Below, piece after piece: positions 5,459-29,030 of a DNA stretch of 34,002 nt. The stretch is taken from NCBI GenBank assembly GCA_027483245.1, contig JAIXVB010000645.1, positions 1 through 34,002 of the forward strand. Reading direction: 5' to 3'. The stretch is from Verrucomicrobiaceae bacterium. Its GTDB lineage: Bacteria; Verrucomicrobiota; Verrucomicrobiia; Verrucomicrobiales; Verrucomicrobiaceae. How positions within the stretch are numbered: the stretch's first letter is position 1; every line of letters begins with the position of its first letter. A program made the position numbers and the translations under genes. The notes under the pieces are model-generated. The model saw only the letters and a list, made by a program, of their open reading frames with translations. It ran no database searches and was not told where the DNA came from.

Positions 5459-5532
5459 ACCTCAATACCCCTTTCACAGCACCCCACTCATGGACTCGAC
5501 CGAGTCTGGACCTAACTTCTGATTCCACTGCC

Positions 5533-6995: not shown

Positions 6996-7025
6996 AAGGC
7001 GTGCTGGAACCTTCCGACACGCCTT
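6996..7025. terminator. Hairpin between convergent genes, possible bidirectional terminator
   Basis: AAGGCGTG (6996-7003) pairs with CACGCCTT (7018-7025), and the loop holds a further GGAA/TTCC pairing. It sits in the 51-bp gap between two convergent stop codons. Neither side has a good T-tract, so termination is plausible but not certain. Confidence 0.4.
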
Positions 7026-9948
7026 ACTTCTTGCCCGTCTGTTTGCTGCGCAAGCCGAGCCAAGTGGCGATGTAACAGCCGACGATCCACAGGCCCAAGC
7101 TGGCGAGCGCGACGACTGCGTGATTCAGGTCCCGGTAAATGATGCCCATGGGATAAAGCACATCGTCACGTTCCTCGACGCTCTCCTGGTATTTTTTCAC
7201 GCCACGAATCATGTCGAAACGATTCACGTGCTCACCCGCGTGACCTGCGAAGACGAGTAGATTTTGCCAGGATTTGTTGTGCGGTGAGACCTTGTCGTAA
7301 TCCTCACTCACGGTGCCATCGATCGTCTCCCACTCGATCGTTTCGCGTTCGCCACCGGGCGTGAGAAAGACCGGATACTTCGTGCGATTGGACATGCGCG
7401 GTGTGGCTTGGCCATAGAGATGCGCCACGTCCATGATTCGCTGCGCGCAGTAGCTCGGCACCACCACGCTGGCCAAGCGAACACTCGGAGTCATTTCAGG
7501 CCGAGTCACCACAAAACCGCCGAACAAAATTTGCGGAATGAGCACCAGTGGCACCCATAGCACCGCCTGTGTGCTGTTACGAACCAGAGCAGAGATTGCC
7601 AGACCAATCGCCACCCCCACCGCAGCGGTCGCCAAGAGTGCCAGCAGCTTCAGCACAAGATTGGAAACGAAGACACGCGTCAGGGTCATCGGAACGTCCA
7701 ACCCAGTCTCGCGAGATTCCTCACCCCGGGGTTCTGTCGCTTCCATCAGGCTATCGGCGATTTCAAAGAAGGACCCCAAATTGACCACGAGGGACACAGC
7801 CCAGGAGTTGGCTTGCTGCGTCTCCTTGGCCGCCGCTGTTTCCAAACTCGCCGCCGCGTCACCCGCTTCCGTGGGCGCTTGGCCTTCCTCAACGACGGAG
7901 AAACCATCATCGACCACAGGCGCGTCCGCCGTTGCCGCAGGAGCGGGATAAAGCCGCGCGGTCATTTTTTCACGAAACACCTCATGATCGAGATCCGCCG
8001 GATGAATGACATGGGCCACGGTCAGCGTGACCAAAAACAGCAAGAGCGCCTGAAGGCCGGTGACTGCACCCAGAAACAGATACTTGCTCTGTAGATAACA
8101 GTTCATGCCTAGACCACAGACCCGCTCGCGGCGAAAGATCGGCAGCTCACGAACAATCTGCTGAGCACCATTGCTGCACCCGAACCAAAGAGTGGCCACG
8201 ATGCAAAGGAAGGAACGCAGAACCGTGTCATCGGCCACCCAACCCACGAGCAATGCGATGAGCAGTGGCTGGGCTGCGAGAAAGACGAGATTCAGCGTGT
8301 CAGCCTTCAAAATAGCCCACTGACGGCGCAACAACACTGTGAGACTGCGCAGATACCCACCGCCACGACGGGTATTTTCAGCCGTGATGGGCACCTCTGT
8401 GTTTTGGCTACCAAAATCAGGCCGCTGATGCTGCCCCTGGCGCTTCTCAAACTCCGCTCGCCATTGCAGGCCCGTTTTTCCACCTTCCTTCAGCGGAGTG
8501 GCAAACAGCTGATAAATCTTCAGCAGCGAGGTCACGCCAAAATAATCCAGCGCCATCTCCGAGGCGGGACGCAGACGAAACTCCGAAGTGCCTGTGGCTC
8601 GACTTCCTGTGATGCTCAGATCAGTTGTCGCCTCCGTGCGACTCTCTGGACGTTCCGTGTCCATGTCACAAACGACATTCGCATCCTGGATGAAGATGAG
8701 TTTGTCAAAAAGCTGCGCGTTTTCCAAAACGTGCGTGGTGCAGACCACGGTGCAGGTTTTTGCCAACGTGTTGAGCAGGCTCATCAATGAAAACTCCGTG
8801 GCGGGATCGAGCCCTGACGAAGGTTCATCGAGAAACAAAACGGAGGGTTTGGAGAGCAACTCCGTCGCAATGCTGACGCGCTTGCGCTGTCCTCCTGAGA
8901 GTTGAGAGATGCGCTTTAGCCGATGCTCACTCAACCCCAGACGCTCAATCGTCTCATCCACCAGACTGGCGATGGCACGGTCGGGTGTCTCGGGTGGCAA
9001 ACGCAGACGGGCGCTGTAATGGAGCGCATTTTCCACCGTGATCTCCATGTGGACGATGTCATCCTGCGGCACGAATCCGATGCCTGCGGCTGCCATCTGG
9101 CGCGGATCACCGAGCGGCACGTCATTGATGTAAACTGTGCCTTGAGTCGCCGGGCTGATGCCACAGAGCGCATTCAAGAGTGTGGACTTCCCCTGACCGC
9201 TGCCACCGACGATGCCGACAAAGGTGCAGCGGTCGATGTCGAGACTCACGTCGTTTAAGATCGTGCGTCCCGATTTCAGCACCACGCTAATCTTTCGGGC
9301 CTCCACACGCCCTCCGGTCTGGCGCGGCACTCGGCGCAGCGAATGCCCCGTGAACTCAAAGGTGTAACTTCCCACCTTCATGCGGTCACCGACCTGAAGT
9401 TTCTTTTGGTGGAAAAATTGATCGTTCAGCGGCGTGCCGGCCTGACTTTTATCGGTGGCAGTCCAGTCGCCCTGCGCATCTTTTTCTAGCAACACGTGCT
9501 CACGCGAGATCGCAGAATCGGCTGCATCGAGCAGGAGTTTATCCGCCTCTGCCGCCTCACCTGCACTGCGCCCCAAGAGCACCCGGGTCAGTTTGCTCAG
9601 GCGCAGTTCATTGGTCGGCTGCCCTCGGAAGACGGGCTGATCCGGCACGCGTTGAAAGCGAATGAAGGCATCTGGCAGCTCAATCAAATCCCCATGCTGA
9701 AGGTAGGCCTTGGCCATCACCGGGATGCCATTGATACGCATGGAGCGCCCTGCGACATTGGAAAAGGGCTGAAGCGCCCAGGTCGCTGAACGCTGATCCC
9801 AGGACAGGCTAGCGTGTTCGGGCAGCAGATTCGAACCGCTCAGGCAGAGATCACAGGTCGTCGCAGAGCCGATTTTCAGAGTGGCTGTGCTGAGAAGGTA
9901 GTGGGCAGGATGAGCACCACTGGCGCAGACGGAGATATGGCCATTCAT
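7024..9948 (-). CDS. FHA-FHA-ABC exporter (ATPase and permease in one chain, Rv1747-like)
   Basis: This 974-residue half-transporter resembles ABCG/White-type exporters fused to phosphothreonine-binding FHA domains. FHA1 is about 20-100 (KIGSATTCDL, LPEHASL). FHA2 is about 120-205 (LLGRSAG, then SREH at 148-151, the classical FHA core). The ATPase domain (about 218-430) has Walker A GGSGQGKST (248-256), the signature LSGGQRKR (350-357), Walker B LFLDEP (371-376) and the switch His406. About six membrane segments follow (near 552-572, 577-597, 622-644, 763-788, 796-815 and 943-965), with acidic, Ala-rich loops between them. Mycobacterial Rv1747 has the same order and is controlled by kinase PknF through its FHA domains, so phospho-regulation is likely here. 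The exported substrate is unknown. It starts at ATG 9948 and is transcribed divergently from the lipoprotein gene. Confidence 0.93.
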   Translation of the reverse strand: MNGHISVCASGAHPAHYLLSTATLKIGSATTCDLCLSGSNLLPEHASLSWDQRSATWALQPFSNVAGRSMRINGIPVMAKAYLQHGDLIELPDAFIRFQRVPDQPVFRGQPTNELRLSKLTRVLLGRSAGEAAEADKLLLDAADSAISREHVLLEKDAQGDWTATDKSQAGTPLNDQFFHQKKLQVGDRMKVGSYTFEFTGHSLRRVPRQTGGRVEARKISVVLKSGRTILNDVSLDIDRCTFVGIVGGSGQGKSTLLNALCGISPATQGTVYINDVPLGDPRQMAAAGIGFVPQDDIVHMEITVENALHYSARLRLPPETPDRAIASLVDETIERLGLSEHRLKRISQLSGGQRKRVSIATELLSKPSVLFLDEPSSGLDPATEFSLMSLLNTLAKTCTVVCTTHVLENAQLFDKLIFIQDANVVCDMDTERPESRTEATTDLSITGSRATGTSEFRLRPASEMALDYFGVTSLLKIYQLFATPLKEGGKTGLQWRAEFEKRQGQHQRPDFGSQNTEVPITAENTRRGGGYLRSLTVLLRRQWAILKADTLNLVFLAAQPLLIALLVGWVADDTVLRSFLCIVATLWFGCSNGAQQIVRELPIFRRERVCGLGMNCYLQSKYLFLGAVTGLQALLLFLVTLTVAHVIHPADLDHEVFREKMTARLYPAPAATADAPVVDDGFSVVEEGQAPTEAGDAAASLETAAAKETQQANSWAVSLVVNLGSFFEIADSLMEATEPRGEESRETGLDVPMTLTRVFVSNLVLKLLALLATAAVGVAIGLAISALVRNSTQAVLWVPLVLIPQILFGGFVVTRPEMTPSVRLASVVVPSYCAQRIMDVAHLYGQATPRMSNRTKYPVFLTPGGERETIEWETIDGTVSEDYDKVSPHNKSWQNLLVFAGHAGEHVNRFDMIRGVKKYQESVEERDDVLYPMGIIYRDLNHAVVALASLGLWIVGCYIATWLGLRSKQTGKK

Positions 9949-10118: not shown

Positions 10119-10742
10119 ATGAAGACACTGATCTCCCGACTCACCGTTTCCGCTATTCTTGCCTCCATGCTGGCTGGATGCACCAACATCAAAGATGACG
10201 GCACCCGCACACGCACGGAAGGTGCCCTTGCTGGCGCCATCCTCGGCACCGCTCTCGGAGCGGTCATCGGCGCACAATCAGGCAATGCCGCACGCGGAGC
10301 CATGCTAGGTGCTGCACTGGGTGGCGGTGCTGGTCTGGCTTATGGCAATCATGTCGCCAACAAAAAAGCCAACTATGCTTCGGAAGAGCAATGGCTGGAT
10401 GCCTGCATCGCCCAAGCCCGCGCGACGAATCAACGTGCACGCAATTACAACAGCAACCTCAGCGCCCGCATCAGCCGCCTGCGCAATGAAATCGCCGCCG
10501 CCAAAGCCACCGGAAACCGAGGCATGCTGCGTGAAAAGAAAGCTGAAATCATCAACCTCCAGAGAGAAACCTCCAGCGAGCTGAAGAAGGTGGACAACGA
10601 AATCAACAGCCAGCAAAACGTGCTGGGCCAAGCCTCTAGCTCAGGCCTGCGCCAGGAAGTCATCAGCCTGAAGGGCAACCGCAGCGCGATGTCCAGCAAC
10701 TACGACCGCCTCGCCAGCCTCAATAGCTCGATCGACGTCTGA
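10119..10742 (+). CDS. Glycine-zipper lipoprotein with coiled coil
   Basis: This is a predicted lipoprotein of 207 residues. The signal peptide ends in the lipobox LAGC, giving lipidated Cys21. Residues about 35-80 form a glycine-zipper segment (GALAGAILGTALGAVIG, then GAMLGAALGGGAGLAYG) of the kind that inserts into or oligomerises at the outer membrane. Residues about 85-195 are helical with coiled-coil character (ISRLRNEIAAAKATG, KKAEIINLQRETSSELKKV). The function is unknown; an envelope-structural or pore-like role is possible. It starts at ATG 10119 without a Shine-Dalgarno sequence. A 39-bp gap separates it from the next lipoprotein gene, so the two are probably in one operon with the S41 protease. 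Confidence 0.85.
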   Translation: MKTLISRLTVSAILASMLAGCTNIKDDGTRTRTEGALAGAILGTALGAVIGAQSGNAARGAMLGAALGGGAGLAYGNHVANKKANYASEEQWLDACIAQARATNQRARNYNSNLSARISRLRNEIAAAKATGNRGMLREKKAEIINLQRETSSELKKVDNEINSQQNVLGQASSSGLRQEVISLKGNRSAMSSNYDRLASLNSSIDV

Positions 10743-10781: not shown

Positions 10782-11021
10782 ATGAACCGCACGATCTTCC
10801 TTAGCCTTGGTCTCGCGACCTGTGCCCTCTCCTTAACGAGCTGCGAAACCACCGGTGATCCGACTCAGGGTGGCCTCTTTGGCTGGTCCCAGAACAAGGC
10901 CGATTACCGCATCGCCGAAAGAAGAGACACGCTTTACAATCTGGATCGGGACAATGACCGCCAGCAGCGCCGCACGCAGTCGCTCCAGTCCGACTACTCC
11001 CGGATGAAGAACTCTCAATGA
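10782..11021 (+). CDS. Small lipoprotein, unknown function
   Basis: This is a 79-residue predicted lipoprotein. An N-terminal hydrophobic stretch ends in the lipobox LTSC (Cys21). The mature part is short and highly charged, with an Arg/Asp/Gln-rich tail (RDNDRQQRRTQSLQ). It probably forms a helix and may bind a partner. The stop codon overlaps the start of the S41 protease by 4 bp (ATGA), which implies translational coupling and suggests the two proteins are needed together. I do not recognise the family. Confidence 0.8.
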   Translation: MNRTIFLSLGLATCALSLTSCETTGDPTQGGLFGWSQNKADYRIAERRDTLYNLDRDNDRQQRRTQSLQSDYSRMKNSQ

Positions 11022-12346
11022 TGAGATGGCGTCAGCTACACCTGAGGGTGGTCGTGCCTGTGCTCTTCGCACTCAGCACGTCCACCTCCAGGCTGCACGC
11101 ACAAGCCGACGCGCGAGAGCTGGATACCGCCACCGAGATCCTCCGCGAATGCGCTAGCATGCTGGAAAAGCGCTGCTTTTACCCGCTGAATGCAGCCACG
11201 GTCCTCTCCAAGGCTCTGTCCGAACTGCACAAAGCAGGCGGTGCCCCAGGAGCGGATGCCCCGCCTCCGCCCGATCTGACCCAGCTCTCTGAAGCCGAGG
11301 CGATCCAAACGACACGTGCCCATCTCAGCGCCCTGACCGCCCTACCTGGTCAGCGGCTCAGTGCCCTCGAACTCGCTGAGGCTGCCTTAGAGGCTTACTG
11401 CCGGACCATCGACCCCTACACTCGTTATTCCACCGCGGAGGATGCGGCTCGCCTGGACAAAGCGCGCACAATCCAAGGCAGTGGCATCGGCATGACCTTG
11501 CAGGAAAAAGACGGCTTTTTCTACTGTTACCCCTTCCCAGAAAGTTCCGCAGCGCTCGCAGGCATCCGCCCTGGAGACAAGCTCCTCACCGTCGATGGGC
11601 GCCCACTCCAGGGAAAATCGATCAATCTGATCGGCACCTGGATTAAAGGCGCACCTGGCACTCCGGTGAATCTGCGACTCGAAAAAGGCGGCACGGGCAG
11701 AGCCCAACTGCTCGCTGTCACACGTGAAGCTGCGGTCGCCCAGCCCATTTACAAAATCGAACGTGACAGCGGTGGAGTTGTCATTCGGTTGAGGCGTTTT
11801 GAGCCCGGCTTGGCCGAAAAAATTCGCGAAGAACTCGCCGCCCAACCTTCCATTCGCCTCCTTACCCTCGACTTGCGCGGCAACCAAGGCGGCAACGCGA
11901 GAGCTGCCATTGAGGTCGCCCAACTCTTTTTAGAATCCGGCAAAAAGATCCTCACCATCCTCGAACGAGGCATGAAACCGTTGGATTTCACTTCTGAAAA
12001 CGCCAGCCCCTTCAGACCCACCCAGATTTCCATTCTGCAAGATGAAGGCACTGCAAGTGCGGCCGAGATCGTCATCGCCGCGCTGGCGGAAAACCTACCT
12101 GGAAAAGCTGCCAGCCAGGGAGAGAAGTCGTATGGAAAAGGGGTGGTTCAAGATGAAGTCGCGCTCAGCAGCGGCGGCAAACTCATCGTGACGGTGGGCA
12201 TGATGTTCGGCCCCGGCGGTCTTTCCTGGAATGAAACCGGCCTCCTTTCCTCCACGACCGCCGATGGCAAAATTTACAGTGATCGAGCCATTTCCATCAC
12301 CAAACCCACCGCAGGTCCGAAACCCGTGGTGAAATTGGTCGATTAA
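11018..12346 (+). CDS. S41 (CtpA-like) carboxyl-terminal processing peptidase with PDZ domain
   Basis: This is a 442-residue exported serine protease. After a signal peptide (about 1-30) comes a helical N-terminal domain containing DPYTRYST, which matches the DPxTxY stretch of CtpA/Prc proteases. A PDZ domain spans about 153-235 (GSGIGMTL, GIRPGDKLLTVDG). The S41 catalytic core has the nucleophile Ser347 in DEGTASAAE and the general base Lys374 in SYGKGVVQ, so the Ser-Lys dyad is intact. Such proteases trim or degrade periplasmic and envelope proteins and are often regulated by lipoprotein adaptors. The overlapping small lipoprotein gene is a candidate adaptor; that link is inference. The gene ends 11 bp from the convergent kinase gene. 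Confidence 0.93.
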   Translation: MMRWRQLHLRVVVPVLFALSTSTSRLHAQADARELDTATEILRECASMLEKRCFYPLNAATVLSKALSELHKAGGAPGADAPPPPDLTQLSEAEAIQTTRAHLSALTALPGQRLSALELAEAALEAYCRTIDPYTRYSTAEDAARLDKARTIQGSGIGMTLQEKDGFFYCYPFPESSAALAGIRPGDKLLTVDGRPLQGKSINLIGTWIKGAPGTPVNLRLEKGGTGRAQLLAVTREAAVAQPIYKIERDSGGVVIRLRRFEPGLAEKIREELAAQPSIRLLTLDLRGNQGGNARAAIEVAQLFLESGKKILTILERGMKPLDFTSENASPFRPTQISILQDEGTASAAEIVIAALAENLPGKAASQGEKSYGKGVVQDEVALSSGGKLIVTVGMMFGPGGLSWNETGLLSSTTADGKIYSDRAISITKPTAGPKPVVKLVD

Positions 12347-12357
12347 AAACTCCCCCA

Positions 12358-14826
12358 TCAGGGAAGCAGCACATCGGTTTCCTTGGTGTTGCCTTCGAAG
12401 GTATTGCCTTCCATCACAGGCTTGGCTCCGCTGGCGATCAAGATGGCGGTGCTGTTGAAGGCGCAGTGATTGCGCAGCACTTGAGGAGCGAAATCCAGCC
12501 CATCGATCGCGATGCCATGTCGCCCGCCCTTCACGCATTGATTTCCTTCGATTAGCACGCTCTGACCCGCAGAACCGAGGGCGATGATGTTGCTGTGGGC
12601 ATTGCCGATGAATTTAGCGCCCCGAGCCAGCGATCCCGGCCCACAGTCCAGGAACTGAACTCCATACTTGGCGTTTTCATTCACTTCCCCGCCCTCGATC
12701 TGAGCGATGGCAGCCGACTCAGCGACCACACCACCGCCACCCGTCCCGCTTTCCGTGCCTTTGCTGGCACCTCCTGCGAAGACAAATCCATTTTTATTGA
12801 AACGCCCTTCTTTGACTTCCGCCTTGGAATCCTGCCCCAAGATGTAAAGTCCATTCAAGACATTCTCACTGGCGCTCAGGCGCTCAGCCTTGAGCAGAGC
12901 TGCCTCTTGTACTGCCGTTCCATTTTGTTGATTGCGGAGGCATTCCAGACCTTTCACTTCCGCAGTCGTGGCACGACCCGTGACCAGCAGGCCGTCCGTG
13001 CCATTGCCAAGAGCTTTGCAGTCTTCCAAGAGGACTGAGGCTCCGCGCCCGACCTGAAAACCGGCAGCTAGATTTCGCTGAGCCGTGCAGCGGGTAAAAG
13101 TCACACGACTACTGCCTTCGACCTGCACTCCACTGCCCAGACCGCTTTCAAAAAGACAATCCTCAAAGGTGACTCGACTTGAGAGAATGCTGACCACCGC
13201 AGCACCCGCAGAACCTGGGCTGAGATCACCATCGCCATGCGTGAAGGTGATGCCGCTGATTTTGAGCTGAGTTTTGAGCTTGTCTGCCTCCATGGCATTG
13301 CCCAGCTTTCCATCCACGCTGATCAGCACGCGCGCTCCAGCCTCTGCGGCCAAAGAGACGCCGTCCACCAAACGCACCGTTTCTTCATAGGTTCCAGCTT
13401 TGAGCTTCACTGTTTCTCCCGCCTTTGCTGCGGCCAGAGCGGCCTGAATCGTCGGATAACCATCGGGGACTACCAATCCAGCCGGAGGCTTGCTGGGCAT
13501 GGTCGGTTCAACCGTGGGTTGAGAAGGTTTCGGCTTGGTCTCGGTGGGGAGCGGGTCAGGGATTGTCTGAACGATCTCAGGTGTCGGCACCGCGGCGGAT
13601 GGTCTGGAGATCAACGTTGAAATTTTCGGCCAAAACAAGGCACCCGATCCGCCTAGGACAACCACAGCGGCCCCGACCAGCACCCAAGGCAGAATGGATT
13701 TCGACTTTGGCTCCCCCCCTTGGGGTTTGGTCACGTCCGTGACACTCGCGACGGTCACTCGAGGGGGCACCGCCGTCTCCATCTGCAAAGGAGACAACGC
13801 GCTACTAGCCCGAACCGTCACGGACCGAGCTGCCGATGGGGCCGTGTCAAAACTGGCCACCGCACCGGTTGGCAGGGACGGATCACCGAAGGCAGAAGGG
13901 GATAAGGATGGAGCTGGCACGGCCCCGCCCAGCCCCAGCAACGCACGCACCTCCTCAGCGTCAGCCGGGCGCAATTCAGGATTCTTTTCCAAACAACGAC
14001 GAATCGTTTCCTCCCACTCAGGCGGAAAGGGCTGGGTGTTGGTCAGTCCGAATTCGAGACGACGCTCGACGATGCTCAGAGGTGTCTCTTCGCGAATCTG
14101 GCGGCTCAAGTCACCTGTGTGGAAAGGCGGCTTTCCAGTGAACAGCTCATAAAGCGTGCTGCCCAGCGAATAAATATCATCGGTGATGCTGGCGGACTTT
14201 CCAGAGGCCTGCTGAGGGCTCATGTAGGCCAGCGTGCCTGTCGAATTTCCCGCGATGGTGACGCGAGTCAGCGAGTCTTGGATGCTGCGGGCAATGCCAA
14301 AATCCATGATCTTAAGATCGCCCTTCGAATTGATGATCAGATTCGGGGGTTTGAGATCCCGATGAGCGATTCGGGCGCTGCGGTGTGCATAAGACAGGCC
14401 ATCCAAGATCTGCGAGACCCAGCGAGTGACCTGATGGGGTTCGAACACTTTGTTTGCTTGGCGCACACGCAGTTTGGCGAGCGTGTCACCGTCCACATAC
14501 TCCATACAAATGGCCGCGTGCTGATCGTCCAAAAAGAAGTCGTAAATCCTGACGATGTTCGGATGCGAAAGATCCTGACCGCGCACCGTCTCACCTTTCA
14601 GTTCTTCAATCGCCGCGTCATCCGAGCGCAAAGTTTCTGGGGCAAACTTCAGCGCGACTTCTCGGCTCAAGCGTGTGTCTTCTGCCAACCAGACAACTCC
14701 CATGCCACCTCGCCCGAGGACACGCTTGAGAGCAAATCTCCCAAAAGCGAGGTCTCCCGATTGATGACCACGCATGGTGGGCCCAAAATCAATATCATCC
14801 AGATTGGCGGGTGTTTTCTCGCTCAT
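12358..14826 (-). CDS. Transmembrane Ser/Thr protein kinase with extracytoplasmic beta-helix
   Basis: The product is 822 residues from ATG 14826. An in-frame TTG at 14865 would add 13 residues. The kinase domain (about 31-297) has the glycine loop LGRGGMGVVWLAE, the VALKF lysine (Lys60), HRDLKPPN with catalytic Asp157, and DFG at 175-177, so it should be active. The APE position reads SPQ. One membrane helix (about 378-399) and a Pro/Thr-rich spacer follow. Residues about 455-822 open with YPTIQAALAAAKAGETVKLKAG and continue with short repeats such as RVTFEDC, VLLEDCKALGN and NGTDGLLV, typical of a right-handed parallel beta-helix (NosD/pectate-lyase-like). The outer part may sense cell-wall or matrix glycans. 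The FHA proteins at 7.0-9.9 kb and 17.7-20.1 kb are plausible readers of its phosphorylation. Confidence 0.93.
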   Translation of the reverse strand: MSEKTPANLDDIDFGPTMRGHQSGDLAFGRFALKRVLGRGGMGVVWLAEDTRLSREVALKFAPETLRSDDAAIEELKGETVRGQDLSHPNIVRIYDFFLDDQHAAICMEYVDGDTLAKLRVRQANKVFEPHQVTRWVSQILDGLSYAHRSARIAHRDLKPPNLIINSKGDLKIMDFGIARSIQDSLTRVTIAGNSTGTLAYMSPQQASGKSASITDDIYSLGSTLYELFTGKPPFHTGDLSRQIREETPLSIVERRLEFGLTNTQPFPPEWEETIRRCLEKNPELRPADAEEVRALLGLGGAVPAPSLSPSAFGDPSLPTGAVASFDTAPSAARSVTVRASSALSPLQMETAVPPRVTVASVTDVTKPQGGEPKSKSILPWVLVGAAVVVLGGSGALFWPKISTLISRPSAAVPTPEIVQTIPDPLPTETKPKPSQPTVEPTMPSKPPAGLVVPDGYPTIQAALAAAKAGETVKLKAGTYEETVRLVDGVSLAAEAGARVLISVDGKLGNAMEADKLKTQLKISGITFTHGDGDLSPGSAGAAVVSILSSRVTFEDCLFESGLGSGVQVEGSSRVTFTRCTAQRNLAAGFQVGRGASVLLEDCKALGNGTDGLLVTGRATTAEVKGLECLRNQQNGTAVQEAALLKAERLSASENVLNGLYILGQDSKAEVKEGRFNKNGFVFAGGASKGTESGTGGGGVVAESAAIAQIEGGEVNENAKYGVQFLDCGPGSLARGAKFIGNAHSNIIALGSAGQSVLIEGNQCVKGGRHGIAIDGLDFAPQVLRNHCAFNSTAILIASGAKPVMEGNTFEGNTKETDVLLP

Positions 14827-14896
14827 GAGGTGCGCAGACTTTGGACCTGAATGAGAGGCGTTCAAGGCTCAAGTCCAGGAACCAAGATCGCCCTCC

Positions 14897-14931
14897 AAAA
14901 AAACAGGCCACCCGTTGAGGGGTGGCCTGTT
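14897..14931 (-). terminator. Intrinsic terminator of the minus-strand exported-protein genes
   Basis: A perfect 12-bp stem (14902-14913 with 14920-14931; 6-base loop) is rich in GGCCACCC/GGGTGGCC. On the minus strand it is followed at once by seven T (seven A on plus, 14897-14903). It lies 28 bp downstream of the 66-residue lipoprotein stop. Confidence 0.9.
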
Positions 14932-14958: not shown

Positions 14959-15159
14959 TTAATTGCTGTAGCTGGAAGGCTTGGTGACAGCCTGGAAACC
15001 ATCCGCAGCTGTGCTCTTCGTGGTGACAGTCGCAGGTTTGGAGGGTGTCGGGCGCTTGGTCACGACCACAGGCGTCGGCTTGGGCTCGATGTAGGTGTTG
15101 TGATACGTGCAGCTGGAGAGCAGAAGACCAGTGGTCAGAGAAGTAAGAATGAGTTTCAT
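14959..15159 (-). CDS. Small Pro/Thr-rich lipoprotein
   Basis: This is a predicted lipoprotein of 66 residues. The hydrophobic N-terminus ends in the lipobox LSSC (Cys17). The mature chain of about 50 residues is rich in Thr, Pro and Lys (KPTPVVVTKRPTPSKP) and probably disordered, as in a wall-spanning or surface tether. It is the last gene before a strong intrinsic terminator and lies 45 bp after the 173-residue exported protein gene, so the two are probably co-transcribed. The function is unknown. Confidence 0.75.
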   Translation of the reverse strand: MKLILTSLTTGLLLSSCTYHNTYIEPKPTPVVVTKRPTPSKPATVTTKSTAADGFQAVTKPSSYSN

Positions 15160-15204: not shown

Positions 15205-15726
15205 TTATTTCTTTTCAACCGCGCCAGGAGGCAGGGCATTGGCACCCGTGGACTCATTGCCAGGATTGCCGTCGCCATTCAGGATTCCCTCTTTCGGCAC
15301 ACCACGGCGACCGACGAGAACCGTGTAGGAGGCGAGGCCATTGGCGCGAGCCATGTGGAGATAGACCACTGCGGTGCCGTTGTAAGAAGAACGGAACTGA
15401 ACGCCTGCCAGTTTTGAGGAACGGCGATCATCCAGGATCAATTGGCCGACTTCATCATAGACGTAAATGTCAGCGTCACGAGCAAAGTCGTCGGTGCCGA
15501 CGAGGAAGACGTAATCCAATCCACGGGTCACTGGGATGAGGAATCTTACCGCTTGGCCACTGCCGAGCACGCCGGAGTGATCAGTTGGAGCCATTTGGAA
15601 TGACTTCGCGATGTAATCGCGCGCCATACGATAAGCCACGTCTTCTGCCTGAGCAGGGTCAGCGTGGAGGGGGTTGAGAGATCCAAAGAGGACGGCAGCA
15701 ATGAGGAGATGGCAGATGGGCTTCAT
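15205..15726 (-). CDS. Exported beta-rich protein, unknown function
   Basis: The product is 173 residues with a signal peptide (about 1-22, likely cleavage after PLHA). The mature protein has alternating hydrophobic strands (AVRFLIPVTRGLDYVFLVG, ADIYVYDEVGQLILDD, AVVYLHMARANGLASYTVLV). The pattern resembles the small beta-sandwich domains of the pre-peptidase C-terminal type, but I cannot assign a family. The C-terminal 30 residues are Gly/Pro/Asn-rich and probably disordered. It sits in the middle of a minus-strand run of three exported-protein genes with gaps of 45 and 57 bp. Confidence 0.75.
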   Translation of the reverse strand: MKPICHLLIAAVLFGSLNPLHADPAQAEDVAYRMARDYIAKSFQMAPTDHSGVLGSGQAVRFLIPVTRGLDYVFLVGTDDFARDADIYVYDEVGQLILDDRRSSKLAGVQFRSSYNGTAVVYLHMARANGLASYTVLVGRRGVPKEGILNGDGNPGNESTGANALPPGAVEKK

Positions 15727-15783: not shown

Positions 15784-16587
15784 CTATTGAACAAATTCTC
15801 CAGAAAGTTTTTGGGCAAGATCAGCCATTCGCTGAACATCTGGCTTCGCGATGGTTCCATCCAAGGGGATATTGACGATGGAATAGATATCCCCCAGGGC
15901 AGAAGAAAGCTTGGCCACTCGTGCATTTTGCTGAGTCGCCGTCGGCAGGGCCTGCATTTCCTTGCTCATTGCTTTGACGAGCATGGGCTCGCGCAGGTAG
16001 TTAGAAAGTTCAGGTGTGTAACGTTGATTGATCACATGAGCTGCGTAATGCGCTCCCTGAAGCCAACCCGAAGCGATGATCAAAGTGCGGCGTTTCTCGT
16101 TTCCTTTTTCACTCAGTGACTGGAGGATGTCCACCTGGAGGCAACCCATTTCCCAAAACACCAAGAGCCACTGCCCTTTATTCGCCAATGCTCGGGTCTT
16201 TTTAGCGCGCTCGAGTTGGCTCTCAGCGACCTTCAATTTCTTAGCCAGCGCTTCGATGTCACTCGCGCATTCGTTCAGAGCATTCGCATCCTGGGCCTTC
16301 ACCGCCATGATGCCATCCGCGATTCTCACGCCGAGGGCAAGGCAGACATCGGTTTCTGCGGTCAGGCTCTTGAGGTCAGCATTGCTGGCCACTTCGCGAT
16401 AGACGTCTCCCCACTTCACACCCTTGCTACCCAGGGCTGCGTCAAGGCCCAAAAACTTATCCATGGGGCTGGGTAAACCGAGCTCTGAATCCTGCGCTTG
16501 GGAAATGTCGAAGGCAGCTTTTTGCTCCTGCGCAGGTAAGGACAAGGAGATAAAAATCAGGGCGATGACTGGGAGGATTCTTTCCAT
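15784..16587 (-). CDS. Exported helical protein, unknown function
   Basis: The product is 267 residues with a short signal peptide (about 1-19, cleavage near LPAQEQ). The rest is predicted to be mainly helical, with a charged amphipathic segment (ASDIEALAKKLKVAESQLERAK) and a Trp-rich patch (GQWLLVFWEMGCLQ). No catalytic motif stands out. It is the first gene of the minus-strand run of three exported proteins and is divergent from the lipoprotein gene at 16692, with a 104-bp shared upstream region. I do not recognise the family. Confidence 0.75.
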   Translation of the reverse strand: MERILPVIALIFISLSLPAQEQKAAFDISQAQDSELGLPSPMDKFLGLDAALGSKGVKWGDVYREVASNADLKSLTAETDVCLALGVRIADGIMAVKAQDANALNECASDIEALAKKLKVAESQLERAKKTRALANKGQWLLVFWEMGCLQVDILQSLSEKGNEKRRTLIIASGWLQGAHYAAHVINQRYTPELSNYLREPMLVKAMSKEMQALPTATQQNARVAKLSSALGDIYSIVNIPLDGTIAKPDVQRMADLAQKLSGEFVQ

Positions 16588-16621
16588 GACAAGATGCGGT
16601 TCTGATTTACTTTCGCCAGTT

Positions 16622-16662
16622 TGTAGGGTTCACGAAACTGTCTTCAAAGCTAACGCCCTACA
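16622..16662. promoter_or_regulatory. Inverted repeat in a divergent intergenic region
   Basis: TGTAGGG (16622-16628) is the exact reverse complement of CCCTACA (16656-16662), and flanking TT and AA could extend the stem past a small bulge. It lies in the 104-bp gap between two divergent genes, ending 29 bp before the lipoprotein start. It could be an operator, an attenuator-like leader or a dispersed repeat. Confidence 0.3.
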
Positions 16663-16691
16663 GCCCTGAATGGTCAAGCCAGATTCTCACC

Positions 16692-17651
16692 ATGAAAGCA
16701 AAAACATCTTCACCCAACGCACAGGCGGGCAGACGCTTGTGTAGTCTTTTATTGGCTGTCTGTTGTCTCCTGCCCAGTTGTCTCGAAGAGGAGGGTCAGG
16801 TGCGTGAACTGCGCCAACTGAGAGAAAAACTGGTTTTGGCTGAAAAGAAAGCGGCCGAGTTGGCTGAGGCCGCCGCAGAAGCCCAAAACCAAGCCCCTGC
16901 CGCCCCCAGTGTTCCTGTCTCCGATGATTCTGGGACAGCGGCTTTGAAGAGGCAGTTGAGCGAGCTGGAATCCAAACATGAGGCTCTGCAGAAGGAACTG
17001 CAAGCGGCCAAGTCAATGGCCAGTGCGGCAAACGAAACGAGCTCGAAACCCGCCGATGCCGGTCAGTTCAAAGACTTTGTCAAAGGCATCGAACGAGACT
17101 TGATGGAACAAGCCAGCACCCTTCAACAGCAGCTTCAAGAAGCGGCCCCCACCGTGGCCATTGAGGGCATCACGGTGAAACGAATTGCCTCCGGTTTCAG
17201 TTCTGAGATCGTGTTCAATGTGGCCGATGGCAGTGGCCAAACACGGCCCTACGCTTTCCCTGTTCAAGCCATGCTCGATGGCAAATGGCGCGTGCCCAGC
17301 GTGGCGGATGTGCAGCGCAATTTGGCTTCGGCAACCCAGGCAGCGCCTGTGCGGCCAGCGGCCCCAGCCTACGCTCAAGCTCCTTCCCCAGCACCCACAC
17401 CTGCCGTGCCACAGGCAGCTCCAGCACCGGCTTCACCGATGAGTGCGCAAGAAACGGTCACGATCCGCTGGGATTCGGCCAATCCAAACGCGGCACGTCC
17501 CGCAGCACCGCAAGCGACGCAGACCACTGCAGCCGTCCCCCCACCTGCGCCAGCTCCGACGCGGCCCGCACAACCGACAGCCCCTGCTGCGCCACGTGTT
17601 CCTGCTCCGGTGATGCCCGTAACCCAGGATGTGCAGATCCGCTTCGAATAA
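16692..17651 (+). CDS. Coiled-coil lipoprotein with Pro/Ala-rich tail
   Basis: The product is 319 residues. The signal ends in the lipobox LPSC (Cys30). The mature chain starts with a charged coiled coil (about 34-65) and a second helical stretch (about 80-110), then a small folded region (about 140-200, VAIEGITVKRIASGFSSEIVF). The last 115 residues are Pro/Ala-rich and low in complexity, with two similar strand motifs, ETVTIRW and the terminal QDVQIRFE. The layout suggests an anchor, a spacer and a short partner-binding tail. The next gene starts 9 bp downstream, so this is the first gene of an operon with the pseudokinase/FHA protein. The function is unknown. Confidence 0.8.
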   Translation: MKAKTSSPNAQAGRRLCSLLLAVCCLLPSCLEEEGQVRELRQLREKLVLAEKKAAELAEAAAEAQNQAPAAPSVPVSDDSGTAALKRQLSELESKHEALQKELQAAKSMASAANETSSKPADAGQFKDFVKGIERDLMEQASTLQQQLQEAAPTVAIEGITVKRIASGFSSEIVFNVADGSGQTRPYAFPVQAMLDGKWRVPSVADVQRNLASATQAAPVRPAAPAYAQAPSPAPTPAVPQAAPAPASPMSAQETVTIRWDSANPNAARPAAPQATQTTAAVPPPAPAPTRPAQPTAPAAPRVPAPVMPVTQDVQIRFE

Positions 17652-17660
17652 GGCCGAGAC

Positions 17661-20117
17661 ATGTCACATCTCTCGCGTTTAGAGCAGGAACTAACACGAC
17701 GGTTCGTTTTGCAAAGTCGTGTTCAAGCTCCTTCCGGGCTGCACCGCCGTTTTCTGGGCAAGTTTGCCGGACAGCCGCAGTCGAACCCTGTCATCATCAC
17801 CTGTGCCACTTACCCGGCGCTGCCTGATGAGTCGGTGGAATTGCAAACGCGGCTGGCCAAACGGATGCAGGCACCAAAGTCTCCCACACTGACAACGGTG
17901 CGTGATTTTCAATTCGATCCCGAATTTCACTGGATGGCGGCGGAGATGCCTTCGGACAGAGACTTGCGCGACATCCTGCGTGTGCAGCAAAGGCTCAATG
18001 TGGAGGACGTCGGTTGGCTGATGGGCGCTCTGAGTGAGGCGCTGCAAAGTGCGGTCGAACAAGGCTGGCCACGCCTGTCTTTGGATGCCTCGCAAGTCTT
18101 TCTCGAACTGGAGGAACGACGCGCCAAGCTGCACATACCTGACATGCCTTTGTTTGGGTTCTCGACCCTGACCATCACGGACACCCTACACACGATGGCC
18201 TTCAATCCGGCAGCCTTTGCCAACCAAGAGGTGCAGGTGCCGGATTCCACACGGGATTATGTGACCCCTCTGGCCGCCCTCTGCTGCGAGGCCCTGGGTG
18301 CAGCGGCTCCTTCGGGTGGCGGTCAAAATGAGCGCTTCCGTGCCATCCCGGTTCTGACCACGCATCAAAACACGCTCTTGCGCACCGCTCTTGCCGGAGC
18401 ACAGCGACACGGCTTTGATCACGTCGATGATTTTGTGGCTCAATTCCTCAGCGCTGGCGAGGCCCCAGGCACCCATCACACACACCCGACTCACCGACCG
18501 ACGGCTACCGCGAGCACCGCGTCCACCCCACCGGCTACCGCAGCTCCGGTGGCCCAATCAACCATCACTCCACCGCCGCCACCGACGGCTCCCCTTTCAC
18601 GCTGGGAGGCCTTACCCATGGGTTACCAGCTCATTCGTGAACTGCGCACGGCGGAAAATTGGCGTCTTTGCAAAGCCAAGCATCATGCGCAGGGCGAGGT
18701 CCTGATCACGACCTTCGATGTCTCCACGGAATTGGCGGAGTCTCAGCGGCGTTTGGCGGGTATCCTTCAGTCACTTCAGCAGACTGCGAATACGACCCTG
18801 ATTCGCCCTCTGGAAATGCTTGGAGACAGCCGAAGCCTGCATGTCGTCCGCACTCAACCGCCAGGTCGCACACTTTTAGATGTGTTGCGTGAACATCGCA
18901 GTTTTAGCCGACCCGCGACCGCTCGCTTACTGGCGGCGATTCATTCGGCCTATGAGGCCTTATGGGCCTGCGTGCCAGGCCGCCCGATGGCCACTTCTCT
19001 GGATCAATTCTGGCTTCCAAATGAAGGCGGCGATTCAGAGAATAAAAATCTGCTGCTCCTTGATGTGTCACAGCTGGTTGTGGAGTCCTTTGCTGACCTC
19101 ACCGCAGCGAACTCCTATCCGGTCAATCATTTCGCGCGGCTCACCCTTTCGCTTTTGGGGCAAGATGGCGGCACCCTCACAGGCGCGGGCCCTTCTCGAT
19201 TCACTCCCGTGCCAGAGCTGAGTTCGGAGGTGAATGGTGTGCTCCGGCGCGCGCTCATGCCTGACCCGACGGGTGAACTCACCCTGCCCTGGCTTCTCTC
19301 TCAGGTGACGGCGGCACTCGCAGGTCACACCGCTGTCGCCCATGCCAGCCGTCAAGTGATGCAGGTGCCTGAAGCCATGCGCGATCTGCCCCTGAAGCCT
19401 GCCAAGCGCATTCGGCTCCAACCCAAGTCGGCAGATCGCCCCATCATCGCCCTCATTGCAGATGACACCTTTTGGTTAGGCCGAGTCGGCACACACAGCG
19501 ATTTTGTGGCTCAATTTCGCCCGCGCAGCCCGGTGAATGACAACCGCACCAAATGCATCAGCCGCACTCAAATGCGCGCTTACTTGCACAATGGCCAGGT
19601 GCAGCTCGAGGAAAAAAGCAGCACCAATCCCTCCCACTCCGGTGGGCGAAGATTAGCCGAGACCGAGGTGGTGCAGCTGCCCATCACCATCGTTCTTGCG
19701 GGTGAATATCCCATCGAGATCCGTGCCCTGAAATCCGCTTACGCTCCCCCTGGACCTGCGGTCGTCGGCTGGGCCGCCCCCAGTCAGCGACCTCTGCGAC
19801 GCGGAGCCTGTTCGTTTCAAGCCCTGGAACGTGGGGTGCTGCCCTTTGAAGCGGCCTGGATTTTTACCGATGCCAGCCTGATTTCAGATGTGAATGGGCA
19901 GCTGATTTTTGACGATTATTCTCCCAAGAACAGCGCGGCCAGATTCCATCACCATGCCGATGTTTTCTGGGTCGAGGCCACCTCAGTCTCCCGCATCATC
20001 CTCAATGGACAGCCCCTCAAAGAAGGTGAAGTCGCGCCGATTGGCGATGGTGACGAGCTGCGACTCGCGGAGGAAGTATATATCGTCACCGCCTGCGCCA
20101 TTGAGGCGGCCAGTTGA
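17661..20117 (+). CDS. Cytoplasmic twin pseudokinase-like and FHA domain protein
   Basis: The product is 818 residues, with no signal or membrane segment. Two regions (about 40-265 and 318-560) follow the hydrophobic rhythm of a protein-kinase fold (RDFQFDPEFHWMAAEMP; GYQLIRELRTAENWRLCKA, then IRPLEMLG and GRTLLDVLREHRSFS) but lack the glycine loop, HRD and DFG residues. I read them as degenerate kinases. A Pro/Thr/Ala linker (about 268-312) joins them. An FHA domain (about 595-690) shows LGRVG and ISRTQ around Ser634-Arg635, with Gln637 where SRxH has His. Residues 715-810 form another beta-rich domain, possibly FHA-like (SVSRIILNGQPLKEGE, IGDGDELRL). It could be a phospho-dependent scaffold. 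It is packed between the lipoprotein and anchored-protein genes (gaps of 9 and 12 bp). The kinase-fold assignment is inference from pattern only. Confidence 0.75.
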   Translation: MSHLSRLEQELTRRFVLQSRVQAPSGLHRRFLGKFAGQPQSNPVIITCATYPALPDESVELQTRLAKRMQAPKSPTLTTVRDFQFDPEFHWMAAEMPSDRDLRDILRVQQRLNVEDVGWLMGALSEALQSAVEQGWPRLSLDASQVFLELEERRAKLHIPDMPLFGFSTLTITDTLHTMAFNPAAFANQEVQVPDSTRDYVTPLAALCCEALGAAAPSGGGQNERFRAIPVLTTHQNTLLRTALAGAQRHGFDHVDDFVAQFLSAGEAPGTHHTHPTHRPTATASTASTPPATAAPVAQSTITPPPPPTAPLSRWEALPMGYQLIRELRTAENWRLCKAKHHAQGEVLITTFDVSTELAESQRRLAGILQSLQQTANTTLIRPLEMLGDSRSLHVVRTQPPGRTLLDVLREHRSFSRPATARLLAAIHSAYEALWACVPGRPMATSLDQFWLPNEGGDSENKNLLLLDVSQLVVESFADLTAANSYPVNHFARLTLSLLGQDGGTLTGAGPSRFTPVPELSSEVNGVLRRALMPDPTGELTLPWLLSQVTAALAGHTAVAHASRQVMQVPEAMRDLPLKPAKRIRLQPKSADRPIIALIADDTFWLGRVGTHSDFVAQFRPRSPVNDNRTKCISRTQMRAYLHNGQVQLEEKSSTNPSHSGGRRLAETEVVQLPITIVLAGEYPIEIRALKSAYAPPGPAVVGWAAPSQRPLRRGACSFQALERGVLPFEAAWIFTDASLISDVNGQLIFDDYSPKNSAARFHHHADVFWVEATSVSRIILNGQPLKEGEVAPIGDGDELRLAEEVYIVTACAIEAAS

Positions 20118-20129
20118 TCCTCTCTCCTG

Positions 20130-21035
20130 ATGAAATCGTTCTTTTTCACACTTCTCATTCTTGGCTCTGCCTTTGTCGCCTACGACTACTTCCTCGCAGC
20201 ACCGTGGGAACGTGTCATCTTTAAAAAAGGGCCTCCGCCCGCGACGGCGAAACCCAAATCAACGATCCCCGACCACGTGATCGAAGACGACGGGCCTCCC
20301 GTGCCCAAGTCAAAACCCGTGGCAACGACGACCTACACGCCGACGATCCCCGCGCTTCCATCCGAGGCGTTCGTGCCGCCAACCATCCCTTCTGTCGAGG
20401 CCCTCACTCAAAATTGGACCGTCATCCCACCCCAGGCTTTTCCACGTTCAGTCACGCTGAAAAAGGATTTGCTGATCAAGATGAGCGTCGGTGCTTCCAC
20501 GCTCAAAGCCGGCGCAACAGCCTTCGCCCTGAGCTCCCAGGGCCCATTGCTCACACTCGCCCCGACCGAAACCTCGGCCGCTCGTGGCACCCTGGCAGTG
20601 ACTGACACTGATTTCCCTGAGCAAATCCAAGCCACCTATGCCAAATGGAAGGTTGATCAAATTGAGCGCGCCAAAGCCGCCTGGACCGCACGGAAGACGA
20701 TCAAAACAGGTACCGCCATCGACAAAAGCACCGTCTCCAATGGACAAGGCATCAACTTCACGGCCGAAGGTAAACCGGTCCAGAATGCCAATGGCAGCTA
20801 CAACCTGCTGCTCGCCGTCATCTCTGCCGGTCACATCAGCGATGTGGACCCCAATAAAGTCGTCCACTGGAGCGAGCCCAGCCTGCAAACCATCGACGAA
20901 AAACCCACCTGGGTGATCGATGTGCGTTATCTCGCGAGAACGATCTTTGGGCCGATGGAGGTGGATAGCCACGCTCATGTCCGCGAGGGCCGACTTGTGC
21001 GTTGGGTCTATGATTCGGGTGAACCTTTGCCTTGA
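20130..21035 (+). CDS. Membrane-anchored periplasmic protein, unknown function
   Basis: The product is 301 residues. One N-terminal hydrophobic helix (about 3-22) is followed by a Lys/Pro-rich linker (about 30-95) and a folded domain (about 100-301). That domain includes PRSVTLKKDLLIKMSVG, a strand-rich part, an amphipathic helix (ATYAKWKVDQIERAKAAW) and a C-terminal beta region (TWVIDVRYLARTIFG). The helix may be an uncleaved signal anchor. It starts 12 bp after the pseudokinase/FHA gene and is very probably in the same operon, so it may be the membrane-side partner of that scaffold. I do not recognise a named family. Confidence 0.75.
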   Translation: MKSFFFTLLILGSAFVAYDYFLAAPWERVIFKKGPPPATAKPKSTIPDHVIEDDGPPVPKSKPVATTTYTPTIPALPSEAFVPPTIPSVEALTQNWTVIPPQAFPRSVTLKKDLLIKMSVGASTLKAGATAFALSSQGPLLTLAPTETSAARGTLAVTDTDFPEQIQATYAKWKVDQIERAKAAWTARKTIKTGTAIDKSTVSNGQGINFTAEGKPVQNANGSYNLLLAVISAGHISDVDPNKVVHWSEPSLQTIDEKPTWVIDVRYLARTIFGPMEVDSHAHVREGRLVRWVYDSGEPLP

Positions 21036-27689: not shown

Positions 27690-29030
27690 ATGCCTGATTG
27701 GAATGTTCGACAAATGAGATATCCTCTTCCAAGCTCACCCCCCGCTGTTTCACGAATGATGTCCCGACTGATTTTTTTGCTCATCTGCCTAGCCCTCACT
27801 GGCTGGACCCTCGATCAGCAACAGCAGTCAGGACGCTTTCAAGAAGTGGACGAGGGCTTTCTCGATTTCTTAGTCGCCAACGGACGAGAGCGACTGACAC
27901 AACTGCGTGCTGACGCGGACTCACAAGTTGCCTTCATCGCCCTCAACGAACAAGACCGTGCCGAATATGAAACCTGGCCACCTTCGCCCTTGGACTGGCA
28001 AACACTGCTCAATGGATTGCGCGCGCATGAACCGAGCGTGGTGCTGATCGCCACACCTCTGAACTGGGGCCGACCTTCACCTGAGTTTGTTCCAGCCGTC
28101 GCGTCAGCCTTGCTACCCTATTCTAGCGTTGTCATGGGGATCGAGACCACGCTGACCTCACCAGACGCTCCGAAGTCCCCCGCCTTTCTCGGGGATCTTG
28201 GGGAGTCGTTGCCCCGGTTTGAGCACGTTCGGGGTGAGTTTTTGGCCCTTCCACGACTCAGTTCACTGATTTCAGCGCCAGACGCCTCTTTGCGGGGCCT
28301 GGGGGAACTGGGGCTCATGGCGACACGCCGCGAAGAAAACCAGCCGCTCCTACCTTACGCGTTGGATGAAGAGGAAGGGATGATCGCTTCCGTCCTCGCC
28401 CAGACTTTAGCCCGATGGTCTCGCACGCCCTTCAGTCGGCATCGTCTGCGTTTGGGGCCCGGAGCAGGTGCCTATCTCGAAGGCGGCGTTTTTGTGCCAC
28501 TGGAGCCAACGGGGGATTTTAAAGTGAATCTCGACCGCAAGCTGCCCAGTGTGAATGCTCTGCACCTTATGATGGGGAATCTGGCCGATGGGACCACGGA
28601 GGAGGACAAACAATCCCTGGGACAAGGCAAAATCATCGTGATCGGTGTGGATCAGCCGAGCCAAGGGGATGAAGGTCAACTCGGGCGCTTGTATGCACGG
28701 GCGCTCGATCAAATCATGGCTCTACCGCGACTTCAGCGACTGACGACTGAGCAGCAATGGATCGCCTGGGGATTGGCCACTCTCGGCGCCGCCTGGATCG
28801 TCATCTCTGGCCGACGGCAACAGGCTTTATGGAAAGGGCTGGGCCTGATCTTTGGTGCCTTGATCCTCAGTTATCTGGTTTTTGAATCCTCTCTCATCTG
28901 GTGTCCGCCGACGATTCCCTCGGCCTTGATTGCGTGTGGAGCGTTCTTTGGGAGGCTATTCGGTCAAAAATCGGCCGTGCTCATGCCGCCCATGCCCGTC
29001 AAGGAAGGCACTGAGAAACTCGCATCGTGA
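27690..29030 (+). CDS. CHASE2-like membrane protein without an output domain
   Basis: The longest form has 446 residues. ATGs at 27756 and 27759 (residues 23 and 24) are good alternatives because the first membrane helix begins right there (MMSRLIFLLICLALTGW). About 310 extracytoplasmic residues follow the CHASE2 sensor pattern: VAFIALNEQDR, DWQTLLNGLRAHEPSVVLIA, a strand ending DFKVNLDR, and KIIVIGVDQ before a region leading to three C-terminal membrane helices (about 366-432). CHASE2 normally feeds a cyclase, kinase or phosphatase after these helices, but here only about 20 residues remain. It may signal through a separate partner. The beta-CASP gene lies 83 bp downstream. The family assignment rests on topology and motif order. 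Confidence 0.7.
   Translation: MPDWNVRQMRYPLPSSPPAVSRMMSRLIFLLICLALTGWTLDQQQQSGRFQEVDEGFLDFLVANGRERLTQLRADADSQVAFIALNEQDRAEYETWPPSPLDWQTLLNGLRAHEPSVVLIATPLNWGRPSPEFVPAVASALLPYSSVVMGIETTLTSPDAPKSPAFLGDLGESLPRFEHVRGEFLALPRLSSLISAPDASLRGLGELGLMATRREENQPLLPYALDEEEGMIASVLAQTLARWSRTPFSRHRLRLGPGAGAYLEGGVFVPLEPTGDFKVNLDRKLPSVNALHLMMGNLADGTTEEDKQSLGQGKIIVIGVDQPSQGDEGQLGRLYARALDQIMALPRLQRLTTEQQWIAWGLATLGAAWIVISGRRQQALWKGLGLIFGALILSYLVFESSLIWCPPTIPSALIACGAFFGRLFGQKSAVLMPPMPVKEGTEKLAS

Follow-up and report, generated by a model that had tools for sequence, protein, structure and literature searches.

Three ORFs lie close together on the forward strand of the window, the whole stretch of 34,002 nucleotides analyzed here. 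The initial annotation had read them as one possible signalling module, made up of an outer lipoprotein, a cytoplasmic protein with two degenerate kinase-like regions and an FHA domain, and a protein anchored in the inner membrane. The ORFs, at 16692-17651, 17661-20117 and 20130-21035, and the gaps of 9 and 12 bp between them were confirmed; we term their products LIPO, PSK and ANC. Next to them is a larger cluster of genes, mostly on the strand opposite to LIPO and PSK, the cores of which recur in at least 5 families of Verrucomicrobiota. The features are as follows.

7024..9948 (-): FHA-FHA-ABC half-transporter (exporter), 974 aa; Pfam FHA twice (4e-14), ABC_tran (8e-29), ABC2_membrane (2e-14)
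10119..10742 (+): glycine-zipper lipoprotein, 207 aa; Pfam Gly-zipper (4e-7), lipobox LAGC
11018..12346 (+): S41 (CtpA/Prc-type) protease with a PDZ domain; Pfam Peptidase_S41 (5e-22), PDZ_6 (3e-8)
12358..14826 (-): PKN, active Hanks-type Ser/Thr kinase; Pfam Pkinase (2e-52), Beta_helix (2e-25)
14959..15159 (-): sLIPO, small lipoprotein, 66 aa, ending F-Q-A-V-T-K-P-S-S-Y-S-N
15205..15726 (-): p173, secreted protein, 173 aa; no Pfam match
15784..16587 (-): p267, secreted protein, 267 aa, with no convincing Pfam assignment; the cluster's best marker
16588..16691 (no strand): divergent p267/LIPO intergenic region, 104 bp, presumed shared control region
16692..17651 (+): LIPO, lipoprotein with coiled coil, small domain and Pro-rich tail, 319 aa; ORF and profile matches in relatives
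17613..17648 (+): conserved LIPO C-terminus, MPVTQDVQIRFE
17661..20117 (+): PSK, pseudokinase-pseudokinase-FHA-FHA protein, 818 aa; profile searches, model and fold comparison
17676..18470 (+): PSK pseudokinase 1, residues 6-270
18618..19340 (+): PSK pseudokinase 2, residues 320-560
19407..19730 (+): PSK FHA-1, residues 583-690
19806..20093 (+): PSK FHA-2, residues 716-811
20130..21035 (+): ANC, 301 aa, with one N-terminal hydrophobic segment

PSK has no predicted transmembrane segment, and its matches to Pfam and NCBIfam were all below threshold (Pkinase, E=0.31; VI_FHA, 19 bits). When an alignment of 15 PSK homologues was used as a profile against the PDB, the first region matched ULK3 (E=2e-5) and DAPK3 (2e-3), and the C-terminal region gave a weak match to FHA domains (0.1). 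The AlphaFold2 (AF2) model of PSK has two two-lobed kinase-like regions and two beta-sandwiches (pLDDT 74); its pTM of 0.40 means that the relative placement of the domains is not readable from it. By structure comparison, residues 4-279 of PSK align with PknA (4x3f) at Z 19.6 and an rmsd of 3.5 over 245 residues, and bacterial Hanks kinases match the first region of the model at Z 18-20. The second region, whose strands and helices follow a kinase-like order in the model, is a homologue of the first by hhalign (96.8%, E=2.7e-10; negative controls with ABC ATPase and S41 profiles, at most 1%). Single-step profile comparison of pseudokinases 1 and 2 with the kinases of the cluster is weak (51% and 7%), so the kinase fold of PSK is argued from the profile matches in the PDB, from the AF2 model and from the relatedness of its two regions. 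These agree with the two degenerate kinase-like regions first proposed, region 1 being matched in both the PDB and the model and region 2 through its homology to region 1.

A motif search found no glycine loop, VAIK, HRD or DFG in PSK, and the catalytic residues are also absent from the profile alignment. Lacking the VAIK lysine, the HRD aspartate and the DFG aspartate, PSK does not belong among the active Ser/Thr kinases; it belongs to the Hanks-type kinase fold as a pseudokinase, with copy 2 included by way of copy 1. A distant homologue, in G071, retains an aspartate at the HRD position, and the lysine and asparagine of that motif are not kept. The good preservation of the fold could be taken to mean that PSK is not a scaffold and has kept some non-canonical transferase activity, since other chemistry is possible on such folds; SidJ is reportedly a pseudokinase fold that catalyses another reaction. 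We consider this improbable, as no conserved polar active-site set stands out in residues 1-270 and the invariant or near-invariant columns of the alignment are mostly hydrophobic or structural.

The FHA domain attributed to the middle product is present, but there are two FHA-like sandwiches rather than one. Modelled alone, the C-terminal 249 residues of PSK gave a pLDDT of 88.7 and a pTM of 0.88, and the top PDB matches of the pair are FHA domains, including both FHA-2 and FHA-1 of the mycobacterial exporter Rv1747. FHA-1 aligns with the second FHA domain of the window exporter (hhalign 78%, E=1.8e-5), and FHA-2 aligns with FHA at 39%. Measured against the family pattern (11-strand sandwich, G-R, S-x-x-H and N), FHA-1 is an FHA domain, with G607 R608, S634 and N656 invariant in 15 homologues, but with a caveat for the histidine of S-x-x-H, which is glutamine in Verrucomicrobiaceae and histidine in G071, G065 and G422. 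FHA-2 shares the fold only, without the G-R and S-x-x-H signature. Judged by these residues, FHA-1 has the pattern expected of a phosphothreonine reader. The VI_FHA match, which falls on FHA-2 at 19 bits against a cut-off of 120, might point to a TagH/Fha-like regulator of a type VI-like secretion system. No T6SS gene was found among the window proteins scanned, and we attribute the match to general FHA resemblance; the TagH identity was rejected, and a role of this kind is hardly credible.

The unit first delimited left out PKN, which lies 2.8 kb away on the other strand, and the FHA-FHA-ABC exporter; the actual set is larger. PKN has complete catalytic motifs (GRGGMGVV, VALK, HRDLKPPN and DFG), one transmembrane segment at residues 391-409 and an extracytoplasmic right-handed beta-helix. 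Its frame is open to a TTG at 14865, but the ATG at 14826 agrees better with relatives. The exporter has two N-terminal FHA domains, an ABC ATPase and an ABC2 membrane part, with six hydrophobic segments at 554-962, and its orthologues adjoin p267 and kinases in many genomes. The gene for the glycine-zipper lipoprotein adjoins FHA-ABC or S41 genes in G149, G056, G183, G118 and G071, and the S41 protease is syntenic in these five genomes as well as in G100 and G049. A kinase gene near the gene for a two-FHA ABC exporter, the layout of PknF and Rv1747, is thus found in the window and is repeated in other families. An Rfam scan of the window gave no match. Elsewhere in the window are genes for a 446-aa CHASE2-domain protein with no output domain recognised in Pfam (27690-29030, +) and for ankyrin repeats fused to an L,D-transpeptidase (YkuD) domain (30487-31845, -).

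LIPO carries the lipobox LPSC at residues 27-30 and a Pro/Ala-rich tail, which bears out the initial call of a lipoprotein with a long tail. A motif of the form MPVxxDVxIRF[ED] closes many of the LIPO proteins, and the motif at the C-terminus selects 10 of 2661 ORFs, all of them LIPO relatives. A LIPO profile built from the f1 family alone matched, in the first round, proteins of G113 (2.9e-20), G118 (1.7e-18), G062 (3e-13), G422 (9e-12) and G064 (2.5e-6), and all five lie inside the cluster. PDZ domains of the S41 protease family can recognise C-terminal tails. Since the same cluster encodes a PDZ-bearing S41 protease, the LIPO tail may be a target of this protease or a docking strand. The window has a single copy of LIPO; in G100 and G183 the gene is duplicated in tandem (L031 10679-12617, L032 6527-8499).

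The divergent arrangement of p267 and LIPO is kept in G100, G183, G149, G049, G140, G056, G066 and G063; a promoter scan of the 104 bp between the two genes found no sigma-70-like site. The gene for the small lipoprotein sLIPO was too short to enter the first ORF lists. At least eight genomes (G100, G183, G149, G118, G056, G066, G063 and G422) encode relatives of it, 61-128 aa long and sharing its tail, whose conserved pattern is F-x-A-V-x-x-P-x-S-Y-S; their genes lie either between p173 and the kinase or directly after p173. A strong terminator-like hairpin of 12 pairs with a T tail lies between sLIPO and the kinase gene (14902-14931, -), so the kinase and p267-p173 may be separate transcripts.

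FHA-ABC was found in 28 of 180 genomes of the order and strong p267 in 22, and 21 genomes have both (Fisher p=2e-20, kinship ignored). FHA-ABC and PSK also co-occur (p=1e-8, again with kinship ignored). A scan of another genome collection with p267 only yielded 22 loci, of which at least 8 belong to genomes already examined. They come from Prosthecobacter, Verrucomicrobium, Chthoniobacteraceae, Terrimicrobiaceae, Akkermansiaceae and unnamed Verrucomicrobia, with one faint case labelled Kapaibacterium. Within at most 10 kb on each side of these loci we found p173 at 17, FHA-ABC at 16, LIPO at 14, a PKN-type kinase at 12, the small lipoprotein at 5, PSK at 2 and ANC at none. Its presence at 14 of the 22 makes LIPO a core member of the cluster. 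The labels of two records call for caution. In L218, labelled Candidatus Kapaibacterium, weak homologues of p267 and FHA-ABC lie within 10 kb, which could be a distant cluster or a binning error. L205, labelled Akkermansia muciniphila, has a full cluster much like that of the Chthoniobacteraceae record L202, and its label may be wrong.

PSK is a narrower addition to the cluster, mostly of Verrucomicrobiaceae and often near a PKN-type kinase. Its homologues read uninterrupted and in frame in 14 relatives; short matches in G114 and G064 were dropped as homologues, and PSK alone as a query found no relative among the contigs of another genome collection. Besides the window, a full PSK is encoded in three genomes of the same genus (G100, G183 and G149), where the LIPO-PSK order is kept and p267 is divergent from LIPO. 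The synteny extends into p173, PKN and S41 in G100 and G183, and in G149 the halves of the cluster are on separate contigs, both of which end inside it. Other genera of Verrucomicrobiaceae, and G071 from a different family of the order, have shorter homologues that combine a single pseudokinase with the FHA pair; G065, of the family of G071, keeps the FHA pair behind a different N-terminus. Homologous copies of a DUF1549/DUF1553 and DUF1501 gene pair, found in the window at 2120-6972 (+), lie directly upstream of PSK in L034, L035, L045 and L040. Because pairs of this kind are believed to be frequent in this group of bacteria, we left them out of the cluster even though they stand beside PSK in several genera.

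In 6 of the 8 genera PSK has a PKN-type kinase nearby, sometimes at 50-250 bp, and this is unlikely to be due to chance, as only 0.03-0.10 kinase genes are expected within 5 kb on either side. The distance varies in the genus of G056 and G066, from 2.8 kb in the former to about 8 kb in the latter. In several genera PSK is found apart from LIPO, p267 and the exporter, and in those of G049 and G056 it is near a PKN homologue and far from p267, LIPO and FHA-ABC. G422, from another family of the same class, encodes a 933-aa protein composed of an active kinase, a pseudokinase and a PSK-type FHA pair (L184 5264-8065, +), with a PKN homologue 53 bp away. The kinase part of this fusion is intact, with HRDLKPAN and DFG, and elsewhere in its genome G422 also has a p267-p173-lipoprotein-kinase-FHA-ABC cluster. 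The fusion suggests, on architecture rather than a tree, that PSK may descend from active kinase-FHA fusions through loss of kinase function.

PSK could instead be an adaptor of PKN-type kinases only, binding and tuning one or several of the roughly 10-50 kinases of the cell, with its adjacency to the exporter module in this genus being secondary. The fused active kinase of G422, the kinase neighbours in the genera of G049 and G056 and the two genomes, G163 and G065, that have PSK and no full FHA-ABC match all favour that reading. Against it, however, FHA-ABC is present in 11 of the 13 PSK genomes tested, and LIPO and PSK are adjacent in all 4 PSK genomes of the genus; on balance we regard it as rather unlikely. 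Still, the module does not require PSK, which may act with kinases alone: it occurs at only 2 of the 22 p267 loci, and in G163 and G065 it is present although no full match to FHA-ABC is.

ANC has one N-terminal hydrophobic segment (residues 4-22), in keeping with the single membrane anchor first ascribed to it. The short gaps make co-transcription of LIPO, PSK and ANC likely in this genome, and they were the ground for proposing a dedicated three-protein signalling module. Synteny largely refutes that proposal, and we consider it very improbable: the LIPO-PSK half stands within the genus, but ANC is beside PSK in no relative examined and at none of the 22 p267 loci. Of 180 genomes of the order, 132 have an ANC homologue, and the closest (61-66% identity) come from genomes that lack PSK and have unrelated genes around them. 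In G100, G183 and G149 the gene that follows PSK is in the opposite orientation, and the ANC homologues of G100 and G149 are on other contigs. With its best orthologues elsewhere, ANC looks like a neighbour brought in by rearrangement in this lineage. A faint ANC-like ORF (2.5e-5) near p267-p173-FHA-ABC in G104 (L158 13346-14239, +) is the sole such case encountered.

Of the known systems, that of Mycobacterium tuberculosis is closest in layout: PknF is encoded in an operon with the FHA-FHA-ABC exporter Rv1747, which it phosphorylates and positively modulates (PMC3908365). In both cases a membrane Ser/Thr kinase is encoded with an ABC half-transporter bearing two N-terminal FHA domains, a likeness of architecture only. 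The cluster described here differs in that its kinase has an outer beta-helix, its host is diderm, and p267, p173, lipoproteins, an S41 protease and, in some genomes, PSK are added. Mycobacterial envelope synthesis likewise has a dead kinase domain that acts with an FHA protein under a real kinase: the phosphorylated pseudokinase of MviN (Rv3910) recruits FhaA (PMC12599244). There the pseudokinase belongs to a membrane protein and FhaA binds it as a separate protein, whereas PSK has both in one soluble chain. In the T7SSb export machine, the pseudokinase YukC/EssB binds the tandem FHA domains of YukB/EssC (PMC9600267), again as separate chains, with a transmembrane pseudokinase and in a different machine. 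That the MviN-FhaA and YukC-YukB pairs are known to act in envelope or export control, albeit as separate chains, makes an adaptor role for PSK a reasonable proposal, not a proven one.

The bacterial pseudokinase families of a 2025 review (ActPs1-3, GLW, DLHK, CP1 and DYD) share with PSK the Hanks fold and the loss of catalytic motifs; a text search of that review found no FHA-fused family and no mention of Verrucomicrobiota. Neither the cluster nor the pseudokinase-FHA fusion was described in the literature searched, which excluded most subscription journals, and the mycobacterial exporter was the only kinase-regulated FHA-ABC exporter studied at the bench in the literature found. The best-supported placement of the cluster is as a variant of the kinase/FHA-ABC exporter kind, extended by a pseudokinase-FHA fusion.

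We favour, at roughly even odds (about 0.5), the reading that PSK is a cytoplasmic, catalytically dead phospho-adaptor of a PknF/Rv1747-like envelope kinase-exporter module to which ANC does not belong. The computations establish composition, folds, the lost catalytic motifs, the conserved FHA-1 residues and which genes co-occur; from these we infer all interactions, the direction of control and the exporter cargo, and gene clustering is no proof of physical contact. The strongest ground for doubting this reading is that PSK is missing from most genomes with the module, and that a few genomes with PSK have no full match to the exporter. PKN would span the inner membrane, its outer beta-helix sensing some feature of the envelope, and its cytoplasmic kinase would phosphorylate threonines on PKN itself, on PSK and on the exporter. 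The FHA domains of the exporter and FHA-1 of PSK would then bind these phosphothreonines, and PSK could either bridge the contact of kinase and exporter or compete at it, its pseudokinase domains docking kinase or exporter without phosphate transfer. These contacts would set the activity of the exporter, which may move an envelope lipid or glycolipid. The cargo would be handled further by LIPO, the remaining lipoproteins and the secreted p267 and p173, and the S41 protease would provide quality control. The link from a cytoplasmic phospho-reader to the envelope, as first suggested for this locus, is therefore plausible, albeit through other partners than ANC.

More tentatively, the cluster may represent an undescribed trans-envelope export system of Verrucomicrobiota, in which a kinase-gated FHA-ABC exporter passes cargo to dedicated lipoproteins and secreted proteins whose C-terminal tails are conserved, and PSK is an evolvable phospho-switch that arose from the fusion of an active kinase to FHA domains. 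The analysis gives this diderm phylum, which has seen little molecular study, a larger conserved kinase/FHA-ABC exporter set, holding at least 3 protein families that Pfam does not name (p267, p173 and LIPO) in addition to a small lipoprotein. PSK itself offers a tractable case of dead kinases built into envelope signalling, with a possible origin from an active fusion visible in a relative.
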